37,336 bases of DNA, taken from positions 1 to 37,336 of the IMG/VR virus record IMGVR_UViG_3300020583_000026. One strand, 5' to 3'. This document shows, in pieces, positions 8,213 to 30,322 of the stretch. Within the stretch, counting starts at the first letter, position 1. Every line of letters starts with the position of its first letter. The notes under the pieces are model-generated. The model had not been told where the DNA came from. It made no database searches and saw only the letters and a program-made list of their open reading frames with translations. The position numbers and the translations under genes are program-made. This DNA is from a virus.

Positions 8213-8671
8213 ATGATTAAGTCGTTCGCGATCATCCTTGCTGCGATCATGTTGCCGGCCGCCCAGGCGCAGACCGTGCTGGTGACATCTAGCCAGGAAA
8301 CAGACAGCGCATCCAGCGTAGCGGGGCTGGGGACCAAGGCCGGTCCAGTAGTGATCGGAACGGTCGCGTCGACGACGAGCGTTTACGAGCATTCTGAAGT
8401 GTGGGAGGTAGTTCGTCGATTCAGCGAGGAATGTCCTGGGACAGCGTTTGTGACCAACCCGGCGACCCCGCATTCGCTTACGATCCGGACCGAGTACGAG
8501 AAGGTCCCTGGCACCTTGATGGGAACGCTGGTGGTGTACCAGCTCGTTCTGCTTGATTCCCAAAATAACCCGCTCTATGTGAGCAAGAAGAATTGGCTGC
8601 GTCGCGAGGTTAAACCTGTCTGCAAGGTCATTCATCAGAGTCTGGGAAACGCGATCGAGGCGGCCCGATGA
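8213..8671 (+). CDS. Secreted protein of unknown function (cargo/moron)
   Basis: A 152-residue protein with a clear Sec signal peptide: MIKSFAIILAAIMLPAAQAQ, with cleavage likely after AQA (residues 17-19). The mature part contains Cys75 and Cys138-type single cysteines and a PHSLTIRTEYEKVPGTLMG beta segment. No tail family is recognised. It sits between the gp10-like gene and the tape measure with its own hairpin-controlled start and a terminator after its partner, the layout of a moron expressed independently. A role in altering the host surface or superinfection exclusion is possible but unproven. Its base composition is a little lower in GC than its neighbours. Confidence 0.75.
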   Translation: MIKSFAIILAAIMLPAAQAQTVLVTSSQETDSASSVAGLGTKAGPVVIGTVASTTSVYEHSEVWEVVRRFSEECPGTAFVTNPATPHSLTIRTEYEKVPGTLMGTLVVYQLVLLDSQNNPLYVSKKNWLRREVKPVCKVIHQSLGNAIEAAR

Positions 8672-8933: not shown

Positions 8934-11273
8934 ATGGCTGAAGTCGCGGGCGAAGTAAAACTCATATTCACGGCCGATGCGACTTCCTGGTCGCAGGTCC
9001 TCGACAACGCGCAGAAGCAGCTCAACAAGCTCAAGGGGCAGGCCGAGACAACTGGGAAAGCTACGCGCGCAGAAATGAACGAGGCGCGCGGCTCCATCAT
9101 GGTCCTGGGCGAAGAGATCGGGATCCACCTTCCGCGGCATGTTCAGAAGTTCGTCGCCGGGCTCCCTGGCGTAGCCTCGGCCATGAGCGCGGCCTTCAAT
9201 GGCGTCGCGGTTTTCGCGATCGGGATGGCGATCTTCGAAGCCGGGAAAAAGGTCGTCGAGTTCGTCGAAAAAACGCGCAACGCGGCGAGGGAAAATGCGC
9301 GCGCCTGGGGCGAGGTCGAGGCGCCGCTGCGGCGTACCAACGAAGAAATGCAGGTCGCCAATGACAAGCTCGAGGAGGCCATCGCCACACTCGAGCGCAA
9401 GCCGCACAACGGTATTAAATTGGCCATCGACGAGGCCATCCTCTCGGCCGATACGCTGGGCGAAAAGTTGCGCGCCGATCTAGAGAAAATTGGAGCGGTC
9501 TTAGAAAAACAGGAGCCGGGCGTGATGAGCCGCGTCTTCATGGGCACGGCGGGGACCGGGGACGTTACCGAGCATTCCAAAGGTCTTCAAGATGCTTTAG
9601 ACAAGGCCGACGTGAATGGCCGCGCGCGGCTCGATGCCATGCGTAAGAGCGGCGCCACACAAGAGACGATCGACAGCGCGCGCCGCGAGCTGGATGCCAC
9701 CCGGAAGAAATCGATAGATGCCGAGCTCGAGTGGGCGCGTGGAGAGCTTGCAACCGCGCAAAAGCTCAAGGCCGGCGCCCGGCGGGCTTCCCCGGCCGAG
9801 TGGGCGCAAGACTCGCGCATACGGGATGTAACGGGCTATGCCGCCTCGCTGGGGCGGATGAGCGATTTCACCTCAGTGAGTGATACGCACGCTGATTTAC
9901 AGGGGCAGCTTGGGGGCGATGAGGCAAAGCACAAGAATGAGGAAGAGGCGAAGGCGGCGAGCGAAAAGCGCATGCAGGCAGCGCGCGAGACGCTCGAGCA
10001 GCTCGAGGCCATCCACACTCTGAGCTTCTACGACGAGGCGCAGTACTGGCGCAAACTTGCCGACACCGCGACCAAAGGTTCGGACTTTTACAGGGCGGCC
10101 AGCAAGGCAGCTAACACCGCCGCCGCCGCCGAGCAAAAACAGTTCGAACACAGTATCTCGGAAGAAATGGTGCGGTCGAACGAAGCCGACCTGGCGAGCA
10201 AGGCAGAAGGGGCGCGCATCACCGAGGAGATCACCCGCACGTTTGTTGAGGGAGAGCGCGCTGCGTCTGAGCTCACCCGCGAGCAGCAGAGGGCCGCGCG
10301 CGAGAGTTTCCAAAATAACGCGGAAGAGATTGAGGCGGCCGAACGCATGGGCGAGGCGGCCATCAGGATCGAGGCCGCGCGCGGCCGGTTATCCGCGCTC
10401 GCCGCGGCTATGGGCATGAGCGCGCTGCATCAGCTTTCGGCAGCTAACTGGACTGCGGCCCTGGGCTCGGCGCAGAACGCCGGCGCGGGGATCGGGCTGG
10501 CGGAGATTGAGAAACATTCGGCCACCGTGGGCGAGCGCGCGCAGCTCGACGATGCCGCGGTGCGCTCGGCAACCGCTCTTGGGGCCCTGCGCGACTCGGC
10601 GTCGGAACTTGTCGCCAAGTTTACCGATATGCCGGCGCACATCCGCGAGACTCTCGACCAGGCTACGAGCTCGATCAACGGGGCGATCCTCAAGACCATC
10701 ACCGAGCCTCACGCGCGCGGTCAATGGAAAGAGGCCGGCAAGTCGATCTTCACAGGCGTCGCTGGCTCCGGCCTCAATATGGCCGAGGGCTCGATCGCCA
10801 AGGCCTTCGGCATCTCTGGCGTAGGCAAGCTGGGAACGCAGGCGAATCCGATGTGGGTCCGCATGGCGGCGATGAATGCCGCGGGATCTGGCGTGGCTTC
10901 GCTCGCCACTAGCGTTGCCGGAGGCTCGATGTCTTCTCTGGCGGGCTCCGTGTGGGGCAAGATCGTCCAGGCCGGATTAGGTGCGCTCCCGTTCCTGGCC
11001 TCCGGCGGCAATCTCTCGACCAACATGCCGGCCATCGTCGGCGAGCGCGGCCCAGAGCTCTTCGTTCCGTCGGGTTCGGGCCGGATCGTTCCCAATGATT
11101 CGCTCGGCGGAACGCAGCACACATGGAATATCGACGCGCGCGGAGCCGCCGACCCGGCCGCGACCAGGGCTGCGGTCCAGCGCGGGATTCTCGAGGCCGC
11201 GCCGCGCATCGCCGCCGGATCGATCGCGGCTCAGAAAGACATGAGCGCGCGCCGGCCCACGATGGGCCGATAG
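8934..11273 (+). CDS. Tape measure protein
   Basis: The 779-residue protein sets tail length and helps DNA entry. It is short; by the usual rule of about 0.15 nm per residue the tail would be roughly 115-120 nm. Long charged coiled-coil stretches occur at about 20-70, 110-180 and 240-480. Hydrophobic segments suited to membrane insertion lie at about 75-110 and in the Ala/Gly/Ser region near 600-690. The C-terminus has the hallmark FLASGGNLSTNMPAIVGERG followed by PELFVPSGSGRIVPND. The start has a strong GGAGGA site. Confidence 0.93.
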   Translation: MAEVAGEVKLIFTADATSWSQVLDNAQKQLNKLKGQAETTGKATRAEMNEARGSIMVLGEEIGIHLPRHVQKFVAGLPGVASAMSAAFNGVAVFAIGMAIFEAGKKVVEFVEKTRNAARENARAWGEVEAPLRRTNEEMQVANDKLEEAIATLERKPHNGIKLAIDEAILSADTLGEKLRADLEKIGAVLEKQEPGVMSRVFMGTAGTGDVTEHSKGLQDALDKADVNGRARLDAMRKSGATQETIDSARRELDATRKKSIDAELEWARGELATAQKLKAGARRASPAEWAQDSRIRDVTGYAASLGRMSDFTSVSDTHADLQGQLGGDEAKHKNEEEAKAASEKRMQAARETLEQLEAIHTLSFYDEAQYWRKLADTATKGSDFYRAASKAANTAAAAEQKQFEHSISEEMVRSNEADLASKAEGARITEEITRTFVEGERAASELTREQQRAARESFQNNAEEIEAAERMGEAAIRIEAARGRLSALAAAMGMSALHQLSAANWTAALGSAQNAGAGIGLAEIEKHSATVGERAQLDDAAVRSATALGALRDSASELVAKFTDMPAHIRETLDQATSSINGAILKTITEPHARGQWKEAGKSIFTGVAGSGLNMAEGSIAKAFGISGVGKLGTQANPMWVRMAAMNAAGSGVASLATSVAGGSMSSLAGSVWGKIVQAGLGALPFLASGGNLSTNMPAIVGERGPELFVPSGSGRIVPNDSLGGTQHTWNIDARGAADPAATRAAVQRGILEAAPRIAAGSIAAQKDMSARRPTMGR

Positions 11274-11303: not shown

Positions 11304-11648
11304 ATGCTTTTCAACAATCACCAGTTCACCGAAATCATGGGCTCGTTCGCCCAACTTCACTTGGAGATGAAAAATATGTCAACCGGACTCACAGCACTCA
11401 CCACCGCGGTCAGCGATCTGACCGCCGCCGTCACCACGGAAACCAACAACGTCAACACCGCCGCCGCCGAGATCAAGTCAGCGCTCGGCGGCCTGGCCGC
11501 GAGCGAAGATCCAGCCGTCCAGAACGCCGCGGCCCAGATCGAAGCCCAGGTCGCGCTGATCACGACCGCCAACGCGAACCTAGCCACCGCGGCGGCTTCG
11601 CTCCCGGCCGCGCCGGCGCCACCGGCCGCTTCCGCCGCCAAAGTCTAA
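11304..11648 (+). CDS. Ala/Thr-rich coiled-coil protein
   Basis: A 114-residue protein of regular heptad-like sequence ([19 protein letters not shown]) ending in a Pro/Ala-rich tail. It is probably a helical trimer or oligomer associated with the tail tip or fibre. ATG 11304 has a GGGGAAG site. Another ATG at 11367 inside the frame has a weaker context. No named family is recognised. Confidence 0.75.
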
Positions 11649-11814
11649 AACCGGCCTCGGCGGCTGGATACGCTCAAAAATCCCGGCCGCCGTGGCCCGC
11701 AGCCGCCTCTGGGCGCCCTTCGTGGGCTCCCGGAGGCTCTACCACCCCCCAAAAACCCCTGCGCCGCGCCTTGAGGCCTTCCCGCCCGTTTTCGCCTTAT
11801 CCGGAGATATCAAA

Positions 11815-14800
11815 GTGAAAAAGCTATTTATCGCCTCGCTCGCCGCGGCCTTGGGATTCCTCGCGCTCATTTCGCCCGCCCGCGCTCAGGCACCGACCGG
11901 CTACGTTCAAGTTTCCGGCACGGCGACCTCGGACTCGACCGGGACGCTGGTCGCGAACGGCACCATTGCGTTTGCTCCGGTCAATAACAGTGGGACGCCG
12001 ATCGGCTATCAGGTAAACGGTCACGGCCACGCGATCTCTCTTCCCGTAACCGCTTTAGTCACGGCTGGCGCGTTTACCATCAACCTCGCCGATACCGCGC
12101 TCACGGCTCCGGTCAACGTCTGCTTTTCCGTCACGGTCACCGACAATATAAGCGGCGCGAGCGAGCTCGGTCCCGGCTACTCCTGTTTTCAACCATCCGG
12201 ATATGGAACGGCCGTCTCGAGCGGGATGTGCACCGCTCCGACCGGCGGTCACGGCGGCGCGTGTAACTTCGATCTCTTCGTTCCTAACCTCGCCGGACTT
12301 GTAGTCCAGACTACCGGGCCGACCGGCGCAACCGGCCCATCAGGATCAGCAGGGCCGACGGGGCCGACCGGCCCGACCGGGCCGACCGGCGCAACCGGTC
12401 CAGCGGGCGCGACGGGGCCGTCCGGGGCACCACTGAATTTTGTGGGCGCTTGGTCTTCGGTAACGGCTTATACCGCGGGTCAGGTCGTTACCTTCTCCGG
12501 TACGGCATACGTTGCATTAGTGGGGAGCACGAATGTAACACCGACGCCGGGCGCGACCTGGGCCGTTACTACTTCCGGGGCGGCCGTCCTCGCGCCCGGT
12601 GGTTCCCAGACGATCGCCGAGCCGTCGCTTTCTACCGGGATGGCGCAGTTCTTAGTGAACGAACAAACGATCACAGGCGACCAATCGGTAACCGGCCCGC
12701 AGTTCAAAGTTAATGGCAATATCCCAAAGCAGCTTTTGACGAGACTCCAGCAAGCGAGTCATCGCGTGGTACGCGTGGGCTATTACGGGACGAGCATTGA
12801 AGCATTTAACGATAGCTTTGGCCCTACGTTCGTGAAGTCTCTACAGGCCGTCTATGGAGCGTCGAGTTCCACTTATTCCCGCGTCGGTAACGGAGTGACA
12901 GGCTGCCCGTTACAAGGTTTCAATGGAGCGGCATATTTGAGATATCGGTGCGCCGGGGCAACTACGACGCTCACATTTACGTTCAAGACCTCAGACTTTC
13001 ATCTCGTCTACGACCAAGAGACGGATGGGACCTCTATCCCTGTTACTCTCGACGGCGTGTCTCAAACGGCTTTGAACTGCAATGGGACGCAATCGAACTA
13101 CAGGCTCAGCTATGACATAACAGGACAAAACCCCAACGTGTTTCATACGCTCACTCTTTCCCTCACGTCGGGTACAACGGTGGCCTATATAGAGGGCTAC
13201 GAGTCGGGCAGCCAAACGGGTTTCGCGGATAAGGGTATCGAGATGATGTTCGGCGCGCAGCCGTCTTCGTTGTTGGCTGATTTTTTTACGACCCGGTTTG
13301 CCCCCGGAGGCACGGCGGCGAGTCCTCTGTCGGCTGGTTACACAAGTATCTTCCACGCCGGATCAACCGTCGATCCTGACTTTGTTATCTTCGGTGGACC
13401 AACAAACGATGTACTTCAATCAAATACGAACTACGCTACCCAACTCGCCTCGTTCGTCGGCGCGGCGGTTTCCACAAAAACTCCGCTTATCCTGCTTATA
13501 GAACCCGCTGCGTGCGCTTCCGGCGTCGGCACTCTAACGTATGCTGCTACGGCAGGTTGCGGCAGCGGTACGAATAATAACGCGACCACGTGGGCGACGT
13601 TTAAGGCCGCCACGCTCGCGGCTTGCGCGGCCAACCCCGATTGGGTCTATTGCGCAGACGAGGACGACTATACAGGTTTTGAATTCGCCAATGCTAACTT
13701 CCATACCTCGCCGCTAGTTAGCGGTGACACTCACCCTTCGGACGTTGGCAACGGCAACACCCAGATTGCTTTCGCTGATAGGGTTGCTGCCGAATTCGGA
13801 GCGCCACCGTCGACGGGCGGGTTTAATATGCAACCTGCTCTGACTTCCACTCATCACTTAGGCCCATATATCACCAGCGCAACGGAGCCTTGTACGGGTA
13901 TTGGAACTATGTGGGAAGATACATCTAATGGAACGGGCTCGTCTGCGACGGTGAAATTGAAGACAGCAAATACAGGATACAGGATAGACTCCGGGGGTTT
14001 GGGGGGAACGGCTATAAATGCCATTGGAACTTTAGTAAATTCGACCGTTCAAACTAATTCTCTAAATTCGGGCTGCTCTCGCGGGGTGTGGCAGGTTATA
14101 AGTGGACCGAGTGCAAATATAGCGCTACCAATTAGCGATCCGTATGCCGTAACTTCGACGGCGAGCACACCGTCGACCTACAGCAATGGCGAGGCATATA
14201 GTCTTATCAATACTGCCAGCTCGGCTAATGTGTTCAGCTATCAGATTGCTCCCGATAGAATGACGGTTGGATCCGCCTATACGTTCTCAATTAAGTACAA
14301 GGTGACCACGGCTTCCGTCGCAACTTCCATTAATTGTGGTTTCTATTCCTATAACGGTGCATATATTCAATTCAACCCGCTAGACGGCCTATGGGACCTT
14401 TCTCTAGGTGGGGGTAACTTCGTGTCGCTTCTTGTAATCGGACCATTCCCGCTATATGCGGCTGGTACTGTGATGCCCGATTACGACACGGACTACCATC
14501 GGATGGCGGTCACACTCCCCGGTATATCGTCGTCCGTCGTGTTTAAGTGCACTGTACCAATTGGCGTAGTTATGGAGATAAGTGAACCGAGGATGGACTT
14601 CGGTGCGAGTATAGCTTACGGACCAATGGAGCCTTTACATGTGCCTTCAGCCTCAAACACGATGCTAAACGTTCCCACGGCTACTACTGAACCGTTATAC
14701 GGGCAGAGCTACCCAGAGATGTCTTGGAGCGATACTAGCTCAACCATCGGAACGGTAACAAAAGTGGTGAAAGTCCACGGGGGGGTGTATAGATCGGACA

Positions 14801-15684
14801 CAACGGGCACCCTGAGCCGGGGCAACATATGGAAGGTTACATCGGGTCAAAATATGGACCCGTTCAATATCATGAGTTCGTATACGTGCGCGAACAGCCA
14901 ATGGGGCGTGACTCCAAATAGCACCTACACGTTTAGTCCTGAAACGGGAAACACTCTCACCGCTAAGGGCTGTCAAAATATTCTTAATCCGGGTGGCTTC
15001 CTTCACAACGCGCGAATTGATTTCACCCCCGCTGCGGGGATAACTCTCGCAGCGGCGGACACATTCACTTTGAGTTTTCTCTATCAGCAGACATATCAAG
15101 GCACGGCGGTCCCCAGTGCTACGGCTCCCACGTTTGGGGTCCTTCACTACAACGGAGGTACGATCTATTACTTACAGGCAAATAAAACGTGGAGTACAAC
15201 TGTGTATACGGGGTGGCCCGCTCCCGTTATTTATCCTTCCGCGACGGGCTACCGGCGCATAGCTATTACGTTTCCGGGGGACAGTAATTTAGCCCCATCC
15301 ACCAGTAACTATCTCGCTATCCAATATTTCGCGAACCCGAACGCGTACACCTTTACGTGGGTGATAGGCGATGCGAGGTTAGAGCGCGGGGCTTCAGTAA
15401 CCGAGGGGTCACAGACAGCCAGTTTCGCGATACTCATCGGCTCTGGTCAGGCCGTAATGACGACAGCCGCTATCACTGCTCCGGCGTGCGGTTCTACCGT
15501 CACCGTTCCTCAGGTAGGAGTATTAGCAACGGACGCAATCGCGTGGTCATTCAGCGCAGCGCCGGCAGGGACCAATGCTGGAGTCGTGGCATGGACGACT
15601 GCCGGCAACGTTAATTTCGCTTACTGTCCCGGAGTTACGGAAACACCGGCGGCGGCCACACTAAACTGGCGCGTTACCAGATAA
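11815..15684 (+). CDS. Giant exported-type tail fibre with collagen repeats and SGNH esterase domain
   Basis: A probable receptor-binding and polysaccharide-modifying protein of 1289 residues. GTG 11815 is chosen because CCGGAG lies eight bases upstream and it yields a textbook signal peptide ([20 protein letters not shown], cleavage after ARA near residue 24). Order: signal peptide; Ig-like beta domain to about 167; 13 collagen-type GXY triplets at 168-206; a small carbohydrate-binding-like module ([20 protein letters not shown]) at about 210-250. An SGNH hydrolase domain follows at about 315-660, with GTS (Ser327), GPTND (Asn531) and DTHP (Asp638, His640). Then come two jelly-roll modules ending in similar GAS motifs and a Cys-containing C-terminal domain ending LNWRVTR. 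From about 12,700 the DNA is distinctly lower in GC than flanking genes, which suggests recent acquisition. Confidence 0.85.
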
Positions 15685-15701
15685 GAAGAGAGGAAAATAG
15701 T

Positions 15702-16415
15702 ATGTTACAGCCAATCAATGATATCAACTTAGAATCCGAACTTTGGGCCGATCATAACCCACTCGACGGCTCCTTGATCGGCGGAGCGATGCCGAAGGAA
15801 TACATCCTGATGACGGCCGTTCCCGGCGCGCCGCGCGGCATCCTGCTCGGCGTTAACGGCGCGGCGTGGGCCACGATGGAAGCCTATTGCCTTCCGCGCC
15901 CGAACTTCGTTACCAAGGGCTTCGGAGTTACGACCGAAACCTTTACGTTGACGATCGATCACTTGGGCGCGGCTCAAATCCGCGAGTTCGATCTGATCCG
16001 GATTATCCGCCTCGCCGACGGCACGGTATGGCATTTCGACGGATCGATTCAGATTGTCATCGCGACGGGAATGATCCAAGTCGACTCGGCTCCTCCGGCG
16101 CTGCCCAAGCTGCCGACGTGGGTCGATACCGGCGTTACGATTCCGGCGTCCGCACTCACTCCGGACGTACCCCATCTGATCGCGATCACCCACAAGTCGG
16201 ACCCGGTGGCGAAGACGCATTCGGTCATCTCGATCTCGGTCGACGGCGTGGTGTACGCGATTCCGGCCGCATTCCAGAATCTGCCGGCAACGCCGAGTAA
16301 CTGGAGCGTGGTCGACGTCGATTACATTCAGGCTCAACTAACTGTGCTCGGGACCGGCGGCGCGGCGGCCGAGCTCCTCTCCGCGATCTCCCTTCAGCAT
16401 CGGACGGCTGTCTAG
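15702..16415 (+). CDS. Unknown tail-associated beta protein (lectin-like?)
   Basis: A 237-residue protein with no signal peptide. The strand pattern with the phrases VTTETFTLTIDHLGAAQI and HSVISISVDGVVYAI resembles a concanavalin/LamG-type beta-sandwich, but this is a guess from texture only. The GAGAGG site precedes ATG 15702, 17 bases after the fibre stop. GC content returns to the phage average here. Its place beside the fibre suggests a fibre accessory or sugar-binding decoration. Confidence 0.65.
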   Translation: MLQPINDINLESELWADHNPLDGSLIGGAMPKEYILMTAVPGAPRGILLGVNGAAWATMEAYCLPRPNFVTKGFGVTTETFTLTIDHLGAAQIREFDLIRIIRLADGTVWHFDGSIQIVIATGMIQVDSAPPALPKLPTWVDTGVTIPASALTPDVPHLIAITHKSDPVAKTHSVISISVDGVVYAIPAAFQNLPATPSNWSVVDVDYIQAQLTVLGTGGAAAELLSAISLQHRTAV

Positions 16416-16417
16416 TT

Positions 16418-17107
16418 ATGCCCGGCATCGTCAACCACACGGAGTGGACGCTCGATTCGCTTCACGAGTATCTCGTCTCGGTTCTAAAGGAGCGCGATGA
16501 TCGTCACAAAAGCGAATTGATCGCGCTCGAAAAAACGCTGCTGACTCATATCGAGGCCGCGGCGGAAAGCGCGGGGATACTATCGACCGCCAACGCTGCG
16601 GCGATCCAGAAGGCCGACGAGAACATCGACCGGCGCTTTGAGATTCTTCGCCAGGACACGCTGGCTCACGCTCAATCCGACGTCGTCGCTCATTCGAAGA
16701 TTTCGTCGGAATTTCACGAGACCGTCAACTCGGAAGTTGCCCACCTGAAGACGACCATCGACGTCATTCTCTCCGCCAATGAAAAGGCAATCGCTAAGGC
16801 CGACGCCGCCAACGAGAAGCGATTCGATTCGGTCAACGAGATTCGCGGCACCATGGCCGATCAAGCGACGAAATTCATCTCGCGGACCGAAGTCGGCCAG
16901 ATGGTGAAAAACGTCGAGGACAAAACCATGGCAAACGTGAGCCGCCTCGACCGGATAGAGAGCGCGAAGAGCGGCCGCATGGAGGGCTGGCAGTTGTTAG
17001 TCGCTGCCCTTGGCGCGGTCGGCGTCCTGATCGGGATCATCAGCGGAATTGCTTTGCTTCTCCACACCTTCGTTGCCAGCACCGTCCCGAGCACCATCCC
17101 GAAATAG
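16418..17107 (+). CDS. Coiled-coil protein with C-terminal membrane anchor
   Basis: A 229-residue protein. Residues 10-180 are a long charged helix with repeated AAIQKADENIDRRFEIL- and AIAKADAANEKRFDSV-like segments. Residues about 190-215 form one hydrophobic segment (LLVAALGAVGVLIGIISGIA). The family with AEKA.A.A...NEKRF...NE.R....DQ followed by a membrane helix is common in phage genomes with unknown role. It could act in lysis or at the membrane during injection. It starts two bases after the upstream stop. Confidence 0.75.
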   Translation: MPGIVNHTEWTLDSLHEYLVSVLKERDDRHKSELIALEKTLLTHIEAAAESAGILSTANAAAIQKADENIDRRFEILRQDTLAHAQSDVVAHSKISSEFHETVNSEVAHLKTTIDVILSANEKAIAKADAANEKRFDSVNEIRGTMADQATKFISRTEVGQMVKNVEDKTMANVSRLDRIESAKSGRMEGWQLLVAALGAVGVLIGIISGIALLLHTFVASTVPSTIPK

Positions 17108-17110
17108 CCG

Positions 17111-17130
17111 CGGGCGGCGGTCTCCGCCCG
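17111..17130 (+). promoter_or_regulatory. Intercistronic hairpin
   Basis: CGGGCGG (17111-17117) pairs with CCGCCCG (17124-17130) around a six-base loop. There is no T run. It probably stabilises or punctuates the mRNA between two genes. Confidence 0.5.
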
Positions 17131-17154
17131 AATCAAGAAAACGAGAGGAAATTT

Positions 17155-17631
17155 ATGGCTACGACTTTACCAGTCGCCGCGAAGCCGGAATCTGGCTTCA
17201 AGCGGTTCATCGATGAGGTTGGAAACTTTTTCGTTCACACCGCGCCCATCGTCGAGGAGGAAGCCGTCGCCGCGGAGCCGTTTCTCGCTCTGACGCCGTT
17301 CGGCCCGGAATACAATCTCGTGGTCGGTGCGATCGTCGGAATCCAGAAAGTCGCGACGGTCTCGCTATCAACCGGAGCCGCGCTCTCGGGCGTTCAGAGG
17401 ATGGCGCTGGTCATGTCGGCGGTCCTGCCCGGCCTCGAGGCGATCCTCAAATCGAAGGGGATTACCGAGCCCGCGGCCGTCTCGGCGGCGTCGTCGCAAT
17501 TCGCCCAGAACGTCTACAACTTCCAGACCGGGCCGGTCGCCCTGCTTCCGCCTCCGGCGGCCGCTGCGCCGGCGCCACAGGCCGCGGCGGCCACTTCTGG
17601 CGCGGTTCCAGCAAGGCCGGTGGCGGTCTAA
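17155..17631 (+). CDS. Unknown protein with hydrophobic core
   Basis: A 158-residue protein. It starts ATTLPVAAKPESGFKRFIDE, has a hydrophobic middle (LVVGAIVGIQKVATVSLSTG, then MALVMSAVLPGLEAIL) and ends in a Pro/Ala-rich tail. No family is recognised. The AGAGGAAA site is good. One weak possibility is a membrane-active lysis protein, because no other holin can be seen; its place before the distal tail gene argues for a virion or assembly role instead. Confidence 0.65.
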   Translation: MATTLPVAAKPESGFKRFIDEVGNFFVHTAPIVEEEAVAAEPFLALTPFGPEYNLVVGAIVGIQKVATVSLSTGAALSGVQRMALVMSAVLPGLEAILKSKGITEPAAVSAASSQFAQNVYNFQTGPVALLPPPAAAAPAPQAAAATSGAVPARPVAV

Positions 17632-18282
17632 ATGGCCACGATCACGCTGGGCGCGAACGTCTACACCGCCGTCACGATGCCGGTGTCGCCTTCCGCGCCC
17701 GCGACGATCGCGGTCGGCATGGAAGACTCGGTCGCGGTCGTCGAGTCGCCCTTCGTTCCGTCGCAGAGCCAGCTTCAGCAGTGGCCCGGAGCGGATCGCT
17801 GGACGATGTCGATCGAGCTCCCGCCGATGAGCCGGGCCCGCGCTCTTCCCTGGCTTGCCTTCCTGGCAAGTCTTCAGGGCATGCTGAACGTGTTTCAACT
17901 CGGCGACCCGCTCGGACGGAAACCGAGCGGCGTTGCCCAGGGCGCGCCGGTCGTCGCCGCCGGCACGGGCTTGAACGCGGTCAGCGCGATCGCGCTCTCG
18001 ACGCGTGGCTGGGTGGCGTCGAAATACGGCCAGCTAAATCCGGGGGATTATCTTCAGGTCGGGTACCGGCTCCATCAAGTTACGGCCCAGGTTAACTCAG
18101 ACTCCTCCGGCAACGCGACGATTGCGCTCTGGCCGTCGCTGCGCGAGACGCCGGCAGACGGCACGGCGATTCACCTGGTCAATGCTCAGGGCGTCTTCCG
18201 CCTCGCCACGAACAAACGCCAGTGGCACGCCTCGCCGCGCCAGTTAACCCAGATCAGCTTCGCGGCGATTGAAGTCAGATGA
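17632..18282 (+). CDS. Distal tail-like protein
   Basis: A 216-residue protein whose ATG directly follows the previous TAA. The motifs PPMSRARALPWLAFLASLQG and GDPLGRKPSGVAQGAP belong to a family found in tail clusters just before DUF2163 and NlpC/P60 genes, matching the distal-tail position of gene-transfer-agent and HK97-like clusters. It would form the ring joining the tube to the hub. Its ATGA overlap with the next gene indicates coupled translation. Confidence 0.75.
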   Translation: MATITLGANVYTAVTMPVSPSAPATIAVGMEDSVAVVESPFVPSQSQLQQWPGADRWTMSIELPPMSRARALPWLAFLASLQGMLNVFQLGDPLGRKPSGVAQGAPVVAAGTGLNAVSAIALSTRGWVASKYGQLNPGDYLQVGYRLHQVTAQVNSDSSGNATIALWPSLRETPADGTAIHLVNAQGVFRLATNKRQWHASPRQLTQISFAAIEVR

Positions 18283-18836
18283 CGCGCAACGTTTCCTCGC
18301 CGATGCTCTCTTCGCTTCTCGGGAGCCCGGTCCGGCCCGGTTTCCTCGCCGCGCTCACCTTCCGCTCGACGACCGAATACGTCTGGACCGGGCTCGGGAA
18401 TCTCGTGTACGGCGGGAACACCTACCGCGGCATCGGCTCGCTCGGAAAAATCGGCGCGGTGGCCGAGTCGACCGAGCTCCGCGCCGACGGAACCACCGTC
18501 ACCCTGAGCGGCATCGATCCCGGCCTCCTGGCCGAATCGTTAACCGATATTCAGATCGGCGCGCCGGCCGCGATTTACTTTGCGGCCTTCGATCAGACCA
18601 TGGCGATCGTCGGCACGCCGTATCCGCTTTTCGTCGGCACGGTCGACCAGCCGGTGGTTCAGATCGGGCTCGACGAGATGGCGATCTCGCTCAAGCTCGA
18701 GAACAAACTCGCCAACCTGCAGCGCGCCAATATGCGCCGCTACACCGCCGCCGACCAGGGCCTCTACTTTCCCAATGACACGGCCTTCGTTTTCGTCGAG
18801 CTGCTCAATGACCAAGCCCTGAAATGGACGCCGTAA
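18279..18836 (+). CDS. Tail hub protein, DUF2163-like
   Basis: A 185-residue protein with the ATG inside the upstream stop. It contains FRSTTEYVWTGLGNLVYGGN and GIGSLGKIGAVAESTELRAD, which match the N-terminal part of DUF2163-type hub proteins. The complete family is often longer (about 270-300), so this is a short member. Position before an NlpC/P60-like gene and a large tip protein supports a baseplate hub role. Confidence 0.75.
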   Translation: MTRNVSSPMLSSLLGSPVRPGFLAALTFRSTTEYVWTGLGNLVYGGNTYRGIGSLGKIGAVAESTELRADGTTVTLSGIDPGLLAESLTDIQIGAPAAIYFAAFDQTMAIVGTPYPLFVGTVDQPVVQIGLDEMAISLKLENKLANLQRANMRRYTAADQGLYFPNDTAFVFVELLNDQALKWTP

Positions 18837-19288
18837 TTTCTATGAAGAGAATCGAACACTGGGCCACGCGCTCTTTCCATGAATTTCTGCTCGCGCGCGC
18901 CGCGCGTCCGTTCGTCTGGGGCGAGAACGATTGCGCGCTATTTTGTGCCGACGGGATCGAGGCTATGACCGGCGTCGATATCGCAGCCGAGTTTCGCGGC
19001 AAATATCACGACGAGGCCTCGGCCCTGGCGCTGATCAAAACCGTGACCGGCGGCGCGACGATCGCCGACGCCGCGGCGTATTGCGCCAAAGGCGCGGGCC
19101 TCGCCGAATGGAAGTGGCCGCTCTTTGCCCAGCGCGGCGACCTGGTCATCGTCGTTGACGCGGGCCGCGAGACGGCGCGCTCGATCTCCGGGCTCGTCCA
19201 TCTTTCCGGCCGGCACGTGGTCGCCGTCGGCGAGCTGGGCCTGAAGCGGCTTCCTATTGAAGCGATCGAAAGAGCATGGCATGTCTAA
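18824..19288 (+). CDS. NlpC/P60-like tail peptidase (DUF6950-type)
   Basis: A 154-residue cysteine-peptidase-like protein, likely cutting peptidoglycan during DNA entry. The Cys lies in PFVWGENDCALFCADGI (Cys37), followed by QRGDLVIV and the GRHVVAVGELGLKRLP segment, the normal pattern of short phage members. A second start at 18842 (MKRIEHW) gives a length closer to relatives and avoids the 13-base overlap with the hub gene; neither start has a clear ribosome site. This is the only recognisable cell-wall enzyme in the window. Confidence 0.8.
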   Translation: MDAVISMKRIEHWATRSFHEFLLARAARPFVWGENDCALFCADGIEAMTGVDIAAEFRGKYHDEASALALIKTVTGGATIADAAAYCAKGAGLAEWKWPLFAQRGDLVIVVDAGRETARSISGLVHLSGRHVVAVGELGLKRLPIEAIERAWHV

Positions 19289-22200
19289 GGCCATTTCGGG
19301 CGCGGTCATGATAGCGGCCGATCTTGCTATCGGCGCGGCCTTGTTTCTCAATCCCGCGCTGCTTGCCGTCTTCAATCCGGCGACGATCAATATTTTGAAC
19401 GGCGTCATCATCGGGCTTTTTGCGGGCGGCGTCTCGATGGAAGCCGGGGCCCTGGCCGACGCCTTGACCTCGAACCGCGGCCAGAATATTTCCACTCGCC
19501 AGGCTGCAGGCCTGCGCCAGATCATCTACGGGACCCAGCGCGTGGGCGGCGTGGTCATCTATCAGTCGACGACCGGCGTGGGCGGCTCCGGCGGCAATTT
19601 CGTATACAACTACATCATCGCGGTCGCGACCCACTCGATCGACGCCTTCGTGAACGTCTTCCTCGACGGCCGCCAGGTGTTTTGGAAGCAGGACGGCAAC
19701 ACGGCCAACGTGGGATGCGGCTCGGTCGCGACTCCGGCGACGACAGTCGTCACGATCTCCGGTGGGGCCGTTACAGCGATCGCCGTCACCGCGCCGGGCT
19801 CCGGCTATGCCAACGTCAAGCCGACGCGCCAGCGGGTCAGGATTTACGGCGGCGGCGGATCGGGCGCAGCGGCTTACGCGACTAACTCCGGCACCCCTTC
19901 CTCGCCTGTATTTACGGTCCATGTCACCTCGGGCGGCTCCGGCTATACGACCGCACCGACGGCCGAGATTCAGGGCCTGTACGTCTTCGGCGGCGTGGGC
20001 GCAGCCGATACCCAGGACCCGACCCAGATCGGCTTCGGGTCAGGCTACGGGATCGGGCCGTCGGGCGCTCATTACAACTTTTCAGGCAAGGTATTTTGCG
20101 AAGCCCGCTTCGGCGATCAGATCCCATCGGATTACATGGCGAGTTTGAGCGCGAACGATTCCGTTTGGCCGTCGACGGCGAACGTGAGCGGCGTGGCGTA
20201 TCTCTATCTCAATGTCGGCTTCGATACCAACCTGTTCACTAATCCGCCGGAGATACGGATCACAGTCAACGGCAAAGACACGATCTATGATCCGAGGAGC
20301 GGGGCGACCGGGTTCTCGACGAACTGGGCTCTTCAGGTTGCCGATGTTATCACCGATCCGACCTTCGGCCTTGGCGACGCGGGCTCAGTCAACACGGCGC
20401 AGTTAATCGCCGCGGCCAACGTCTGCGATCAACTTATCCTGACCAGCCAGGGCAACGAGCCGCAGTACCCGCAGAACATTCACTTTGATTCGTCCACCGC
20501 TCCCGGCGATCAACTCTCTCTGATGATGCCGAGCGCGCAGGGCCGTTTGAGCCGCATCGGCGGCCAGTGGTTCATCTGGCCCGCTTACTGGCAGGGGCCG
20601 AGTTACAGCTTCGACTCTTCGGTCCTGATCGACGCGCCGACGTGGACGCCGAACCGCAGTTTCAAGGATTTGTTTAACCGGGTCAACGGGACCTACATCG
20701 CGCCGAATTATCCGTACGCGACCTCCGGGAATTTGTACGACGCCAACGGTTGGTATTACGGAACGCGCTCAAACGTGTGGCCCTTCGCGTGGCAGCCGAC
20801 GAACTTTCCCCAGTATGCGGCCGACGTTCGCCACGGCTATACCTCCGACCTCTATCTTGCCGAGGACGGCGGCGTTCAGCTTCCCAAGGAGCTGGGGCTC
20901 CGCGGCGTGATCTCGATTACGCAGGCCCAACGCCTCGCGAAAATTTGTCTGATGCGGAACCGCTTCCAGGGCTCGGGGAGTTTTCCGATGGCGCTGGCGG
21001 CATGGGCGCAGATGCAGCCGACCGACGTCTTCAATTTCACCTGGGCCGCACTCGGCTGGTCGTCGAAAGTCCTCGAGGTCGACTCGATTCACTTCGTTGT
21101 CGAGCCGGTAAAAAACCGCGCGGGTGGCGAGGACGATCAGACTCCGGCGATCACCGCCACCATCACCGCGATCGAGACCGATCCGACTATCTACGAATGG
21201 TCGATCGCCGAAGAGCTCACTCCCTACGACGTGCCGGCGGCGGCGAGCCAGATACCCTCGAGCCCGGCCGCGCCGACGCTCTTCACTGTTACGAGCTCCG
21301 CGGCGACGGCGATCGTGGGCGCGGATGGCATCGTGACGCCGCGCGCGCTGCTCTCCTGGAATGCGCCGCTCGATATCTCGGTAACGCAGATCGAGATTCA
21401 GTATCAGTTAGCTGGCGCTCCGGCCTGGCTGGCCGCCGGTATGGTCGCCGTGGGCCTTTTCGAGCACTACGTCTCCGGAGTGATCGCCGGGCAGACGTAT
21501 AACTTCCAGATCAGGAGCGTGAGGCCGAGCGGCAATACTTCCGGCTGGGTAACGGCGCTGGGCGAAGTGATCAGCATCACGCTTTCGACGACCATCTCCG
21601 GCGATCCGCCGGTCGCTCCTCCTGGCACCTTGTCTGCCGTTGTAGATGGCACGGGCGCGGATATTATCGTGTGGCCGTTCACGGCCTCGGTGGGCGGGCT
21701 CTCGGTCGCCTGCCTTCCCAGCGGAGCCGCTACTATCACCGCACTCGTTCAAGGTCAGCTTTATTACGTCTACTATGCCGACCCGACCTTCGCGGGCGGC
21801 GCGATCACTCCGGTAGCTACGCAGAACCTCGGCGATTTCGTCGGTGTGATCGGCCGCTTCTATATCGGCTCGATCACCACGCCGACGAGCGGCTCCTCGG
21901 CCTTGCAGCGGCCCAACACCTACGCCGATTCGGGAACCCGCGCGACGTCGAACCCGACCTATGCCTACGACGGGAATCCGTCAACTTACGCTTTGCTCGA
22001 CGCGCAGAACACGACGCTCGCCGGGCAGACTAACGCCGACTGCGTCTTCTCCGGGTTCGTGCCTTATGTCACCACAGCGGTGATGACGCTATCGGTGACC
22101 GCGGACCTTACTGTCCCGGCGGCCTCGAACGCTTCGACCATTACGGCGACGATCGGCGGCGCGAGCACTACCATGTTATCAACCGCGGTGACGACGGCCT

Positions 22201-22337
22201 CGGCGACTTATACGGCAACCGTGCCGATCGGGACTAACCTGAACAGTATTTCAGTCGAAGTCATAACCGGGCCTCAGTTAGCGACGAGCGGCGGCTCGCG
22301 CGTGCTTCTGAAGGTCTACGATATCAATGTTCACTAA
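19281..22337 (+). CDS. Tail tip / host specificity protein (J-like)
   Basis: A 1018-residue central tip protein. The N-terminus has two hydrophobic segments (about 5-28 and 35-55), then the hub-fold region. At about 154-235 are tandem Gly-rich repeats (APGSGYANVKPT, then SGGSGYTTAPTAEI). Next come the conserved VADVITDPTFGLGDAGSVN and PSAQGRLSRIGGQWFIWPA elements shared by J/GTA gp15-like proteins, and a fibronectin-III-like domain at about 665-770. The C-terminal third is beta-rich and probably variable in host range. ATG 19281 overlaps the peptidase stop by eight bases; an upstream ATG at 19257 has no better site. Confidence 0.88.
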   Translation: MSKAISGAVMIAADLAIGAALFLNPALLAVFNPATINILNGVIIGLFAGGVSMEAGALADALTSNRGQNISTRQAAGLRQIIYGTQRVGGVVIYQSTTGVGGSGGNFVYNYIIAVATHSIDAFVNVFLDGRQVFWKQDGNTANVGCGSVATPATTVVTISGGAVTAIAVTAPGSGYANVKPTRQRVRIYGGGGSGAAAYATNSGTPSSPVFTVHVTSGGSGYTTAPTAEIQGLYVFGGVGAADTQDPTQIGFGSGYGIGPSGAHYNFSGKVFCEARFGDQIPSDYMASLSANDSVWPSTANVSGVAYLYLNVGFDTNLFTNPPEIRITVNGKDTIYDPRSGATGFSTNWALQVADVITDPTFGLGDAGSVNTAQLIAAANVCDQLILTSQGNEPQYPQNIHFDSSTAPGDQLSLMMPSAQGRLSRIGGQWFIWPAYWQGPSYSFDSSVLIDAPTWTPNRSFKDLFNRVNGTYIAPNYPYATSGNLYDANGWYYGTRSNVWPFAWQPTNFPQYAADVRHGYTSDLYLAEDGGVQLPKELGLRGVISITQAQRLAKICLMRNRFQGSGSFPMALAAWAQMQPTDVFNFTWAALGWSSKVLEVDSIHFVVEPVKNRAGGEDDQTPAITATITAIETDPTIYEWSIAEELTPYDVPAAASQIPSSPAAPTLFTVTSSAATAIVGADGIVTPRALLSWNAPLDISVTQIEIQYQLAGAPAWLAAGMVAVGLFEHYVSGVIAGQTYNFQIRSVRPSGNTSGWVTALGEVISITLSTTISGDPPVAPPGTLSAVVDGTGADIIVWPFTASVGGLSVACLPSGAATITALVQGQLYYVYYADPTFAGGAITPVATQNLGDFVGVIGRFYIGSITTPTSGSSALQRPNTYADSGTRATSNPTYAYDGNPSTYALLDAQNTTLAGQTNADCVFSGFVPYVTTAVMTLSVTADLTVPAASNASTITATIGGASTTMLSTAVTTASATYTATVPIGTNLNSISVEVITGPQLATSGGSRVLLKVYDINVH

Positions 22338-28383: not shown

Positions 28384-28611
28384 ATGAAACCGATGGCGAC
28401 GAGAGGTGGCACATTCTTAGGGCTTGCGCGAGCGGCATTCGAGATCGCGCAAAAAGAAGCTGAAGAGCTCGATCAGATCGACCGTGACCTGAAAGACGGA
28501 AAAGATGGCGAGGCTCTCAGTGCGATGAGAAAGTTTTTCAATCGCAAGAAACCAGCGACAGGGGAGAAAGCACATGACAGGGAAAACGACAGGGAGCGCA
28601 GGCAAGCGTGA
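28384..28611 (+). CDS. Small charged protein upstream of integrase
   Basis: A 75-residue protein with GAGGAG before ATG 28384. It is highly charged (KEAEELDQIDRDLKDGKDGE) and Lys/Arg-rich at the end. The 3' end overlaps the integrase start by 38 bases. It may be a recombination-directionality factor by size, charge and location, but nothing in the sequence proves it. Confidence 0.6.
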   Translation: MKPMATRGGTFLGLARAAFEIAQKEAEELDQIDRDLKDGKDGEALSAMRKFFNRKKPATGEKAHDRENDRERRQA

Positions 28612-30322
28612 GCGTAAGTCGGTTATCGCTTTGATCAGGGTCTCGACCGACGACCAGGCTGCGGATGACAAGGGCGGCATACCGGCGCAGGAACACGCAT
28701 GCGAGACGATCGCCGGCCGCTACGGGCTGGAAATCAAATGGCGGATCCAGATTGAGGGCATAAGCGGCGCCGGCGTTCGTCGCTCGCCGCAGTTCCAGGA
28801 GTTGATTCGGATCGTCAAAAGCGGCCAATGCGATGGGATCGTGATCAAGGAGGAATCGCGGCTCATGCGCCGCGCGGACTCGGCGGTCCTGCAGATGCTC
28901 GAAACGTATCGCGTGAAGCTCTACTGCCTCGACACCGTGCTCGACTTCAGTAACTCCTCGCAGAAACTTTTAGGCACGATGAAATTTGCGTTCGGCGATT
29001 ACGAGCGCGACCTGATCCGCGACCGGACGGTGAGCGGGAAGGCGGGCAAGCGGCGGCGCGGTGAGTGGGTGGGCGGTGCGAATTCTGTTCCTTTTGGGCT
29101 AGAGCTCTACAAGGCGGGTAAGTTGAACCGGTTGCGCGTCAACCCGCTGACTATAGGTCGCGTCACGCGTCTCTTCGAGTTGTTCATCGAGTACGGAGGT
29201 TTTTCGTCGTTCGCCCAACTTGCGCGCGAGAGTGGCGTTCCGTTTCATTCAATCGAATACGTCCTCCAGAATGAAATTTACACCGGCTATTACGTTTCGC
29301 GGCTTCGGGTGAACCCGGACAGGAATGTGTATTGGGGACCGGAAGCCGGCATCGAGCGCGCGGGAAAACTCCGTTATCAGCGGCGCGAGCCGATACCGAT
29401 CGATGAGCGCGAGAGGATCAAGATGTTCGATGACGCGCCGATCTCCGATGTGGTCTTCGCCCAGGCGCAGAAGCTTCTCGCTCTCCGCAAAGAAATGCGA
29501 GTTCGTGTCCGCGAAGGCGTCGAAGACCTCTTCCTGTATCGCGGCTTCCTCCGCTGCGCCGGTTGTGGCCGGCGCCTGATCACGGTCTCATACACCAACA
29601 AGAAGGCGAACAATTTTCACGCTGATTATTACGTTTGCCAGGGCGCCCATGGTTCGCGCAATGCAAACGGAACCTGGTACGTGAAAAACGGAACCTGTTC
29701 CACGCGCCGGATTCGCCGCGAGACTCTCGAGCCGATGCTTGATCGGCTGATCTCCGACCGGCTCTCTAACCCCAAACTGTTAAGCGAAATCATCGACGCT
29801 CAGGCCGCGGCGGAAGCCGAAAGCTCGAGCGAGCAAAAGCTGGAAAGGCTCAATCTCGAGATTGCCGAAACGCTTCGCGCCATCGAACGCAATCACGAGC
29901 TCTATGTCAGGGGGAAGATTCAAGAGGGCGCGTTCGCCCGGCTCGACGGGCAGCTCCAGATGGAGCTGCGGGCCGCGCGCGCGGAGTTGCAGAAGACGAA
30001 GCCCGATCTGGGCCGGATCACGCCTGAGATGTGGGCTCCGATTGCTCGCCAGTTCCTCCGCTGGAACAAGCTCGACAATCAGAAAAAGCGGGCGATGCTG
30101 GCGGCGATCGCGCCGACCTTCGAGGTCGTCGGCGTAGCTGGAAAGGGCTACCACGAGACGGTAATCGCAGTGAAGGCCTTGCGGCTGGATCTTGGCCATC
30201 ACAAGCCGGAAGATGGCGGCGATGACGGCGAAGAAGTCGCCAGCCCCGAATTGGTTCCTAGCCAGAGCCTATTGTGTTCGGCTCGTGATGTGAACCAATC
30301 ATCTATCTACCTCAATCTTTAG
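28574..30322 (+). CDS. Large serine integrase (recombinase)
   Basis: A 582-residue site-specific recombinase that would integrate the phage. The resolvase domain begins at residue 17 with ALIRVSTDDQ (nucleophile Ser24), the EESRLMRRADSAVLQML region and FGDYERDLIRDRT (active-site helix). The recombinase domain spans about 185-310, with a zinc ribbon at Cys328, Cys331, Cys355 and Cys375. A long coiled-coil occurs at about 410-480 and an acidic C-terminal tail follows. GGGGAG precedes ATG 28574. The neighbouring cyclophilin fragment and dyad fit its attachment site. Confidence 0.95.
   Translation: MTGKTTGSAGKRERKSVIALIRVSTDDQAADDKGGIPAQEHACETIAGRYGLEIKWRIQIEGISGAGVRRSPQFQELIRIVKSGQCDGIVIKEESRLMRRADSAVLQMLETYRVKLYCLDTVLDFSNSSQKLLGTMKFAFGDYERDLIRDRTVSGKAGKRRRGEWVGGANSVPFGLELYKAGKLNRLRVNPLTIGRVTRLFELFIEYGGFSSFAQLARESGVPFHSIEYVLQNEIYTGYYVSRLRVNPDRNVYWGPEAGIERAGKLRYQRREPIPIDERERIKMFDDAPISDVVFAQAQKLLALRKEMRVRVREGVEDLFLYRGFLRCAGCGRRLITVSYTNKKANNFHADYYVCQGAHGSRNANGTWYVKNGTCSTRRIRRETLEPMLDRLISDRLSNPKLLSEIIDAQAAAEAESSSEQKLERLNLEIAETLRAIERNHELYVRGKIQEGAFARLDGQLQMELRAARAELQKTKPDLGRITPEMWAPIARQFLRWNKLDNQKKRAMLAAIAPTFEVVGVAGKGYHETVIAVKALRLDLGHHKPEDGGDDGEEVASPELVPSQSLLCSARDVNQSSIYLNL

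Follow-up and report, generated by a model that had tools for sequence, protein, structure and literature searches.

A tail fibre with a Sec signal peptide in a temperate-looking siphovirus, and its signal-bearing, cysteine-rich relatives in other phages

The window, by which we mean the whole stretch of DNA analysed, is a complete IMG/VR record of 37336 bases from a soil virus that looks like a temperate siphovirus. Its genes run in the order portal, protease, capsid, tail tube, probable tape measure, a group of extra genes, tail-tip genes and serine recombinase, with the tail-tip genes in the same order as those of Klebsiella phage K21lambda1. Relatives suggest that the host may be an acidobacterium. 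The fibre gene considered here is one of the extra genes, lying inside the tail module and flanked by the tape measure and Dit. Its parts and its neighbours are as follows.

8213..8671, + strand: second signal-peptide gene of the tail module (predicted signal MIKSFAIILAAIMLPAAQA, cut before QTVLV); 152 aa, 2 Cys, no known family
8934..11273, + strand: probable tape-measure protein, assigned from size and position; no Cys, no signal
11803..11806, + strand: ribosome-binding site GGAG, read from the sequence, with an 8-nt spacer to GTG 11815
11815..15684, + strand: predicted exported tail fibre; 1289 aa, 19 Cys
11815..11886, + strand: Sec signal peptide, residues 1-24, predicted cut between ARA and QAPT; present in most related fibres
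11887..12312, + strand: N-terminal domain, residues 25-166, candidate virion-attachment domain; Cys103/Cys124 shared with locus L055
12316..12432, + strand: collagen-like stretch, residues 168-206
12448..12555, + strand: CBM_5_12-like module, residues 212-247 (E=1.6e-4), also in Rhizobium phage tail fibres
12712..13884, + strand: putative SGNH esterase region, residues 300-690, from motifs and sub-threshold Pfam matches
12793..12795, + strand: Ser327 codon, block I GTS (motif GTSIE)
13405..13407, + strand: Asn531 codon, block III (motif GGPTND)
13726..13734, + strand: Asp638-Thr639-His640 codons, block V (motif GDTHPSD)
13885..15411, + strand: residues 691-1199, no family match, DARLERGA-type motif at the end
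15412..15681, + strand: C-terminal tip domain, residues 1200-1289, with Cys1225/Cys1271; tailspike tip or H-type lectin-like predicted fold
17632..22337, + strand: tail-tip module (Dit-like, L-like, DUF6950, central fibre J-like)
28574-30322: serine recombinase

Five genes occupy the interval 11304-17631 between the tape measure and Dit, an interval that is empty in lambda-like phages; the product of one at 16418-17107 is a long probable coiled-coil protein with a hydrophobic helix at its end. The second signal-bearing gene (8213-8671) sits just before the tape measure, and no relatives of it were found in viral contigs. Cysteines number 0 in the tape-measure, Dit-like and L-like proteins, 6 in the J-like protein and 19 in the fibre.

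The fibre reading frame is open from 11584, and among its in-frame starts only GTG 11815 is preceded by a ribosome site. An earlier note on this DNA had read an export signal from that start, and the reading holds: the N-terminus matches all three signal regions (n, h and c) and the cleavage site, and scores 4.95 under a rule that passes at 4.5 or more. No in-frame start occurs between the signal and the mature part, so that the signal cannot be removed by another choice of start. Signals were called by this self-written rule together with inspection, rather than by SignalP, on predicted start codons. Random N-termini of the same composition pass the threshold in 68 of 20000 cases (0.34%), and shuffling the fibre's own N-terminus gave a score as high as 4.95 in 322 of 20000. 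Across the window only the fibre and the 8213-8671 product pass; the J-like protein scores a weak 3.71, from a doubtful TTG start.

Residues 25-166 appear to form a new N-terminal domain. Locus L055 has the fibre's succession of signal, N-terminal domain, collagen and CBM and aligns with it throughout (272 columns, 30% identical), and the nearest signal-less candidate for the domain, L156, is a weak match that is suggestive only (E=0.014). The collagen repeats described in the earlier note could be counted as 13 uninterrupted G-X-Y triplets, and the Pfam Collagen match (E=3.3e-5, 24.0 bits) falls just under the curated cut-off of 27.2. Tail-fibre family PHROG 5073 matches residues 147-254 (E=1.6e-15), spanning the junction of anchor, collagen and CBM; members of this family and the CBM_5_12 fibres of Rhizobium phages resemble the window's collagen and CBM region, although a Rhizobium example, RHph_TM3_3_9, with 4 Cys in its 911 aa, differs in lacking a signal. 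No relative turned up when viral contigs and phage records were searched with the whole protein, its N-terminal part or the SGNH region alone, apart from a match limited to the CBM in six Rhizobium phages; an N-terminal query of genome contigs was likewise negative. About 14 copies of the same CBM5/12-like module make up part of a jumbo-phage tail fibre, Tunturi_5 gp29 (L069:28905-33314). The DARLERGA-type motif that closes residues 691-1199 is of a kind common in phage carbohydrate-binding modules. Fibre-type domains (collagen and tailspike tip) and a fibre family match are present, and trimer formation through the collagen stretch and the tailspike-like tip is plausible.

For the enzyme proposed in the middle of the protein, the named residues Ser327, Asn531 and His640 are placed exactly, and the Ser, Asn and Asp-x-His catalytic motifs occur in that order. 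The Pfam matches lie below cut-off (Lipase_GDSL_2, E=0.019, 15.9 bits against 32.9; CE2_N, E=0.041), and residues 377-434 may form a CE2_N-like beta insert. A single-sequence AlphaFold model of the region folded alone (pLDDT 37.6) was uninformative and was not used. The SGNH esterase is therefore given here as a putative, motif-level assignment. The earlier description of an exported trimeric enzyme thus keeps its export, which signal and cysteine evidence supports, its trimer as plausible and its enzyme at the level of motifs.

On a model with pLDDT 89.5, residues 1200-1289 are the fibre tip. Tailspike tips, pyocin fibres and H-type lectins head its list of fold matches (Z 5.3-7.1), which includes LKA1 gp49 (Z 7.1), the Pam1 tailspike (7.0), Helix pomatia agglutinin (6.3), K64-1 S2-4, KP32gp38 and R-pyocin fibres. 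Sequence identity to these known tips is low, about 5-20%, and with Z under 8 a shared fold is likely rather than proven. The last 90 residues were the query that opened the family, with 7 loci at first. An alignment-based search gave 47 viral and 4 genome loci (three from Acidobacteriota, one from a beta-proteobacterial MAG), and a wider search of IMG/VR counted 124 viral relatives and retained 80 of them; tblastn against cultured phages gave no match. The domain is rare among sampled genomes: 396 from Acidobacteriota gave 5 matches, and 369 from the same class as the beta-proteobacterial MAG gave 1. It forms the C-terminus of nearly all proteins that carry it; the parts ahead of it are diverse, yet most of these proteins start with a signal peptide. 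At L037:8906-9745 two tip-domain cassettes stand in succession behind a signal-bearing fibre, the second in its own short frame and possibly a spare tip.

Among the tip-bearing fibres 84 could be scored (start or ORF was uncertain for L015, L016, L037, L041, L128 and L142), and 71 of them bear a signal peptide. The earlier note had held that its proposal would fail if homologous fibres lacked signals; most have one. Both tip cysteine columns (Cys1225 and Cys1271) are occupied in 70 of the 71 signal-bearing fibres, the remaining one having the second only, against neither column in any of the 13 signal-less fibres (Fisher p=2e-14, with counts inflated by relatedness). The first set alone gave 36/1 versus 0/9 for the cysteine pair, and the second scan repeated the pattern. 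To deal with relatedness, a tree was built with the tip cysteine columns removed. It shows 8 switches of the signal label; its well-supported branches provide five independent pairs, and in each of these the cysteine pair switches along with the signal (sign test p=0.0625, the limit reachable with five pairs).

Exported proteins with disulfide bonds tend towards even cysteine counts. In these contigs the number is even for 43 of 50 mature signal-bearing proteins (p=2e-7 versus one half), compared with 112 of 247 (45%) for a control of signal-less open frames, which are not all real genes; in proteins of at least 350 aa, median cysteine content is 1.72% with a signal and 0.57% in the others. 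The window fibre itself, with its 19 cysteines, goes against the even trend. As far as sequence can tell, the cysteine patterns of the fibre and most of its relatives are typical of disulfide-bonded extracytoplasmic proteins, a conclusion that we regard as well supported. The same grade applies to a functional-type signal peptide on the fibre and to export as a property reaching beyond this gene, because the signal is kept in related fibres and co-occurs with the cysteine pair and with cysteine parity.

Two groups of phage genes bear on the destination of such proteins. In L007, a 27-residue stretch with the signal precedes a domain that aligns with the extreme N-terminus of six signal-less podovirus spike or fibre proteins, in which it begins at residue 1. 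The six include annotated tailspikes, such as those of Xanthomonas phage PBR31 and Pseudoalteromonas phage H6/1. L007 shares the domain with the tailspikes of these two phages and of Rhodoferax phage P26218 and also carries a tailspike-like tip, but those tailspikes have no signal and few cysteines. The L007 domain is the sole copy in its record, and the window's own N-terminal domain differs from it. For the N-terminal domain of L010 there was no match in phage records. We consider the L007 arrangement the best argument that signal-bearing fibres remain destined for the virion.

The other group is in Tunturi_1 (PP887698), a cultured acidobacterial podovirus isolated as lytic:

L066:10371-23028: Tunturi_1 gp12-gp17, signal-bearing Cys-rich module

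Signals were called on gp12, gp13, gp14, gp16 and gp17, which are consecutive except for the small gp15, and the run adjoins a tail gene. Its annotations include 'tail spike' for gp14 and 'virion structural' within the gp16/gp17 run; the large signal-bearing proteins have 20, 10, 21 and 32 cysteines, and the portal and capsid genes have no signal. In the stretches examined of Tunturi_4 and of Tunturi_3, which infects the same host strain as Tunturi_1, the annotated tail and fibre genes all lack signals. As Tunturi_3 lacks signals on the same host, the trait would belong to phage lineages and not to a host-wide annotation bias. The text of the paper on the Tunturi phages (PMC11924767) does not mention mass spectrometry or virion proteomics.

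Runs of signal-bearing genes recur elsewhere. The acidobacterial prophage L099 has a signal-bearing fibre frame of 1711 codons and two further signal-bearing genes directly before terminase and portal, and in L021, L024, L032 and L045 consecutive signal-bearing genes, several of them beta-helix or lectin-like, surround the fibre. The fibre at L023:8549-10303 has a lipoprotein-type signal (LVSG, cut before C) and may be membrane-anchored. Two distant tip relatives, L101 and L102, are signal-bearing and Cys-rich and lie in a chromosomal setting (FtsX/MacB; Ku, ThuA), so that cellular secreted proteins with this tip do exist; these would be cellular secreted counterparts or domesticated spikes, and they count against virion mounting. 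Unrelated fibres and host signals repeatedly show AxA-type cleavage sites with Q at +1; in one acidobacterial genome A-x-A is followed by Q in 17 of 30 signals. VKOR was found in 4 of 5 acidobacterial genomes searched.

We think it probable, though by no means assured, that the protein is a trimeric tail fibre that is exported by Sec, oxidised in the periplasm and joined to the virion at or after lysis. The chain would leave the cytoplasm through the host Sec pathway, signal peptidase I would cut it after ARA, before Gln25, and the mature chain would fold and be oxidised in the periplasm by a host VKOR-type oxidase, with the collagen stretch and the tip domain bringing three chains together. 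Capsids and tails would meanwhile assemble in the cytoplasm as usual. At or just after lysis the fibre would meet the tail, on which its N-terminal domain would dock. Once mounted, its CBM module and lectin-like tip would bind a host surface glycan, from which the SGNH module, if active, would strip acyl groups; some of the fibres may stay free and work as enzyme or adhesin. In vitro, completed particles of T4 and P22 can still take up their fibres and tailspikes, respectively. For this reason, and because T4 parts assemble in mixed extracts (PMC9576892), joining at lysis is feasible in principle.

The main rival is a purely secreted protein, exported and never in the virion: an adhesin, depolymerase or esterase released from lysogens or infected cells, which might alter the cell surface, block superinfection or clear exopolysaccharide for the escape of progeny. 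Signal and disulfide evidence fits it equally well, Acidobacteriota chromosomes encode secreted cellular proteins that have a distant form of the tip, the window's J-like tail-tip protein could be the receptor-binding protein, and the 8213-8671 gene is a second signal-bearing member of the tail module. We nevertheless judge it rather unlikely. The fibre lies within the tail operon, between tape measure and Dit, and the PHROG 5073 match covers its anchor-collagen-CBM junction; L007 keeps a podovirus tailspike N-terminal domain directly behind its signal, and lytic Tunturi_1 has signal-bearing spike-like genes next to a tail gene. It is because of the L007 arrangement and the almost wholly signal-bearing spike-like run of Tunturi_1 that we provisionally favour virion mounting over secretion by the lysogen.

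Less probable by far is that the hydrophobic stretch stays uncleaved, as a membrane or hydrophobic plug by which the fibre is anchored in the tail or tails are held at the inner membrane while they assemble. Some tail-tip proteins do have N-terminal hydrophobic helices (the J-like protein here, and the 'TMhelix containing protein' of Vibrio phages). Against a plug stand the repeated AxA sites with Q at +1 in unrelated fibres and host signals, and cysteine parity and the tip pair indicate an oxidising compartment for the C-terminal parts. As for an artefact, whether a wrong start codon or a chance hydrophobic stretch, the GTG start and the lack of a full-length homologue could be held in its favour, but the ribosome site singles out GTG 11815, no alternative start lies downstream of the signal, and the signal recurs in most relatives; we give this reading almost no weight.

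The reducing cytoplasm is the accepted site of tail-fibre folding and assembly. Phage proteins known to use Sec include SAR endolysins, spanins and the coat proteins of filamentous phages; these resemble the window fibre in their export, whereas their roles are in lysis or in assembly by membrane extrusion and they are not tail fibres. Genes with Sec signals in Porphyromonas phages, of unknown function and with the potential to modify the host (PMC10367356), share the Q at +1 with the fibre; they were not reported as fibres. A contractile-injection paper on disulfide bonds proved to be no precedent for exported fibres. One paper counts it as support for the phage origin of variable proteins that they lack signal peptides (PMC6199706). 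Searches of open full texts in PMC turned up no account of exported tail fibres, and the group to which this fibre belongs appears to be undescribed, though widespread among viruses of bacteria.

We put at about even the chances that a widespread class of tailed phages, many of them from soil and some infecting Acidobacteriota, has host-recognition fibres that are Sec-exported and disulfide-bonded, and completes its virions outside the cytoplasm when these periplasmic fibres meet cytoplasmic tails at lysis. Tunturi_1 and Tunturi_2 on Tunturiibacter, together with the signal-less Tunturi_3 on the same strain, make a cultured soil system in which this is directly testable. If true, completion outside the cytoplasm would give tailed phages a mode of assembly for which no description is known. 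If fibres are indeed exported and oxidised, this would bear on how they must be expressed as reagents and would caution annotators against setting signal-bearing fibres aside as host genes. It would also change how virions of such phages are understood to be completed and would link their host range to the Sec and disulfide machinery of the host.
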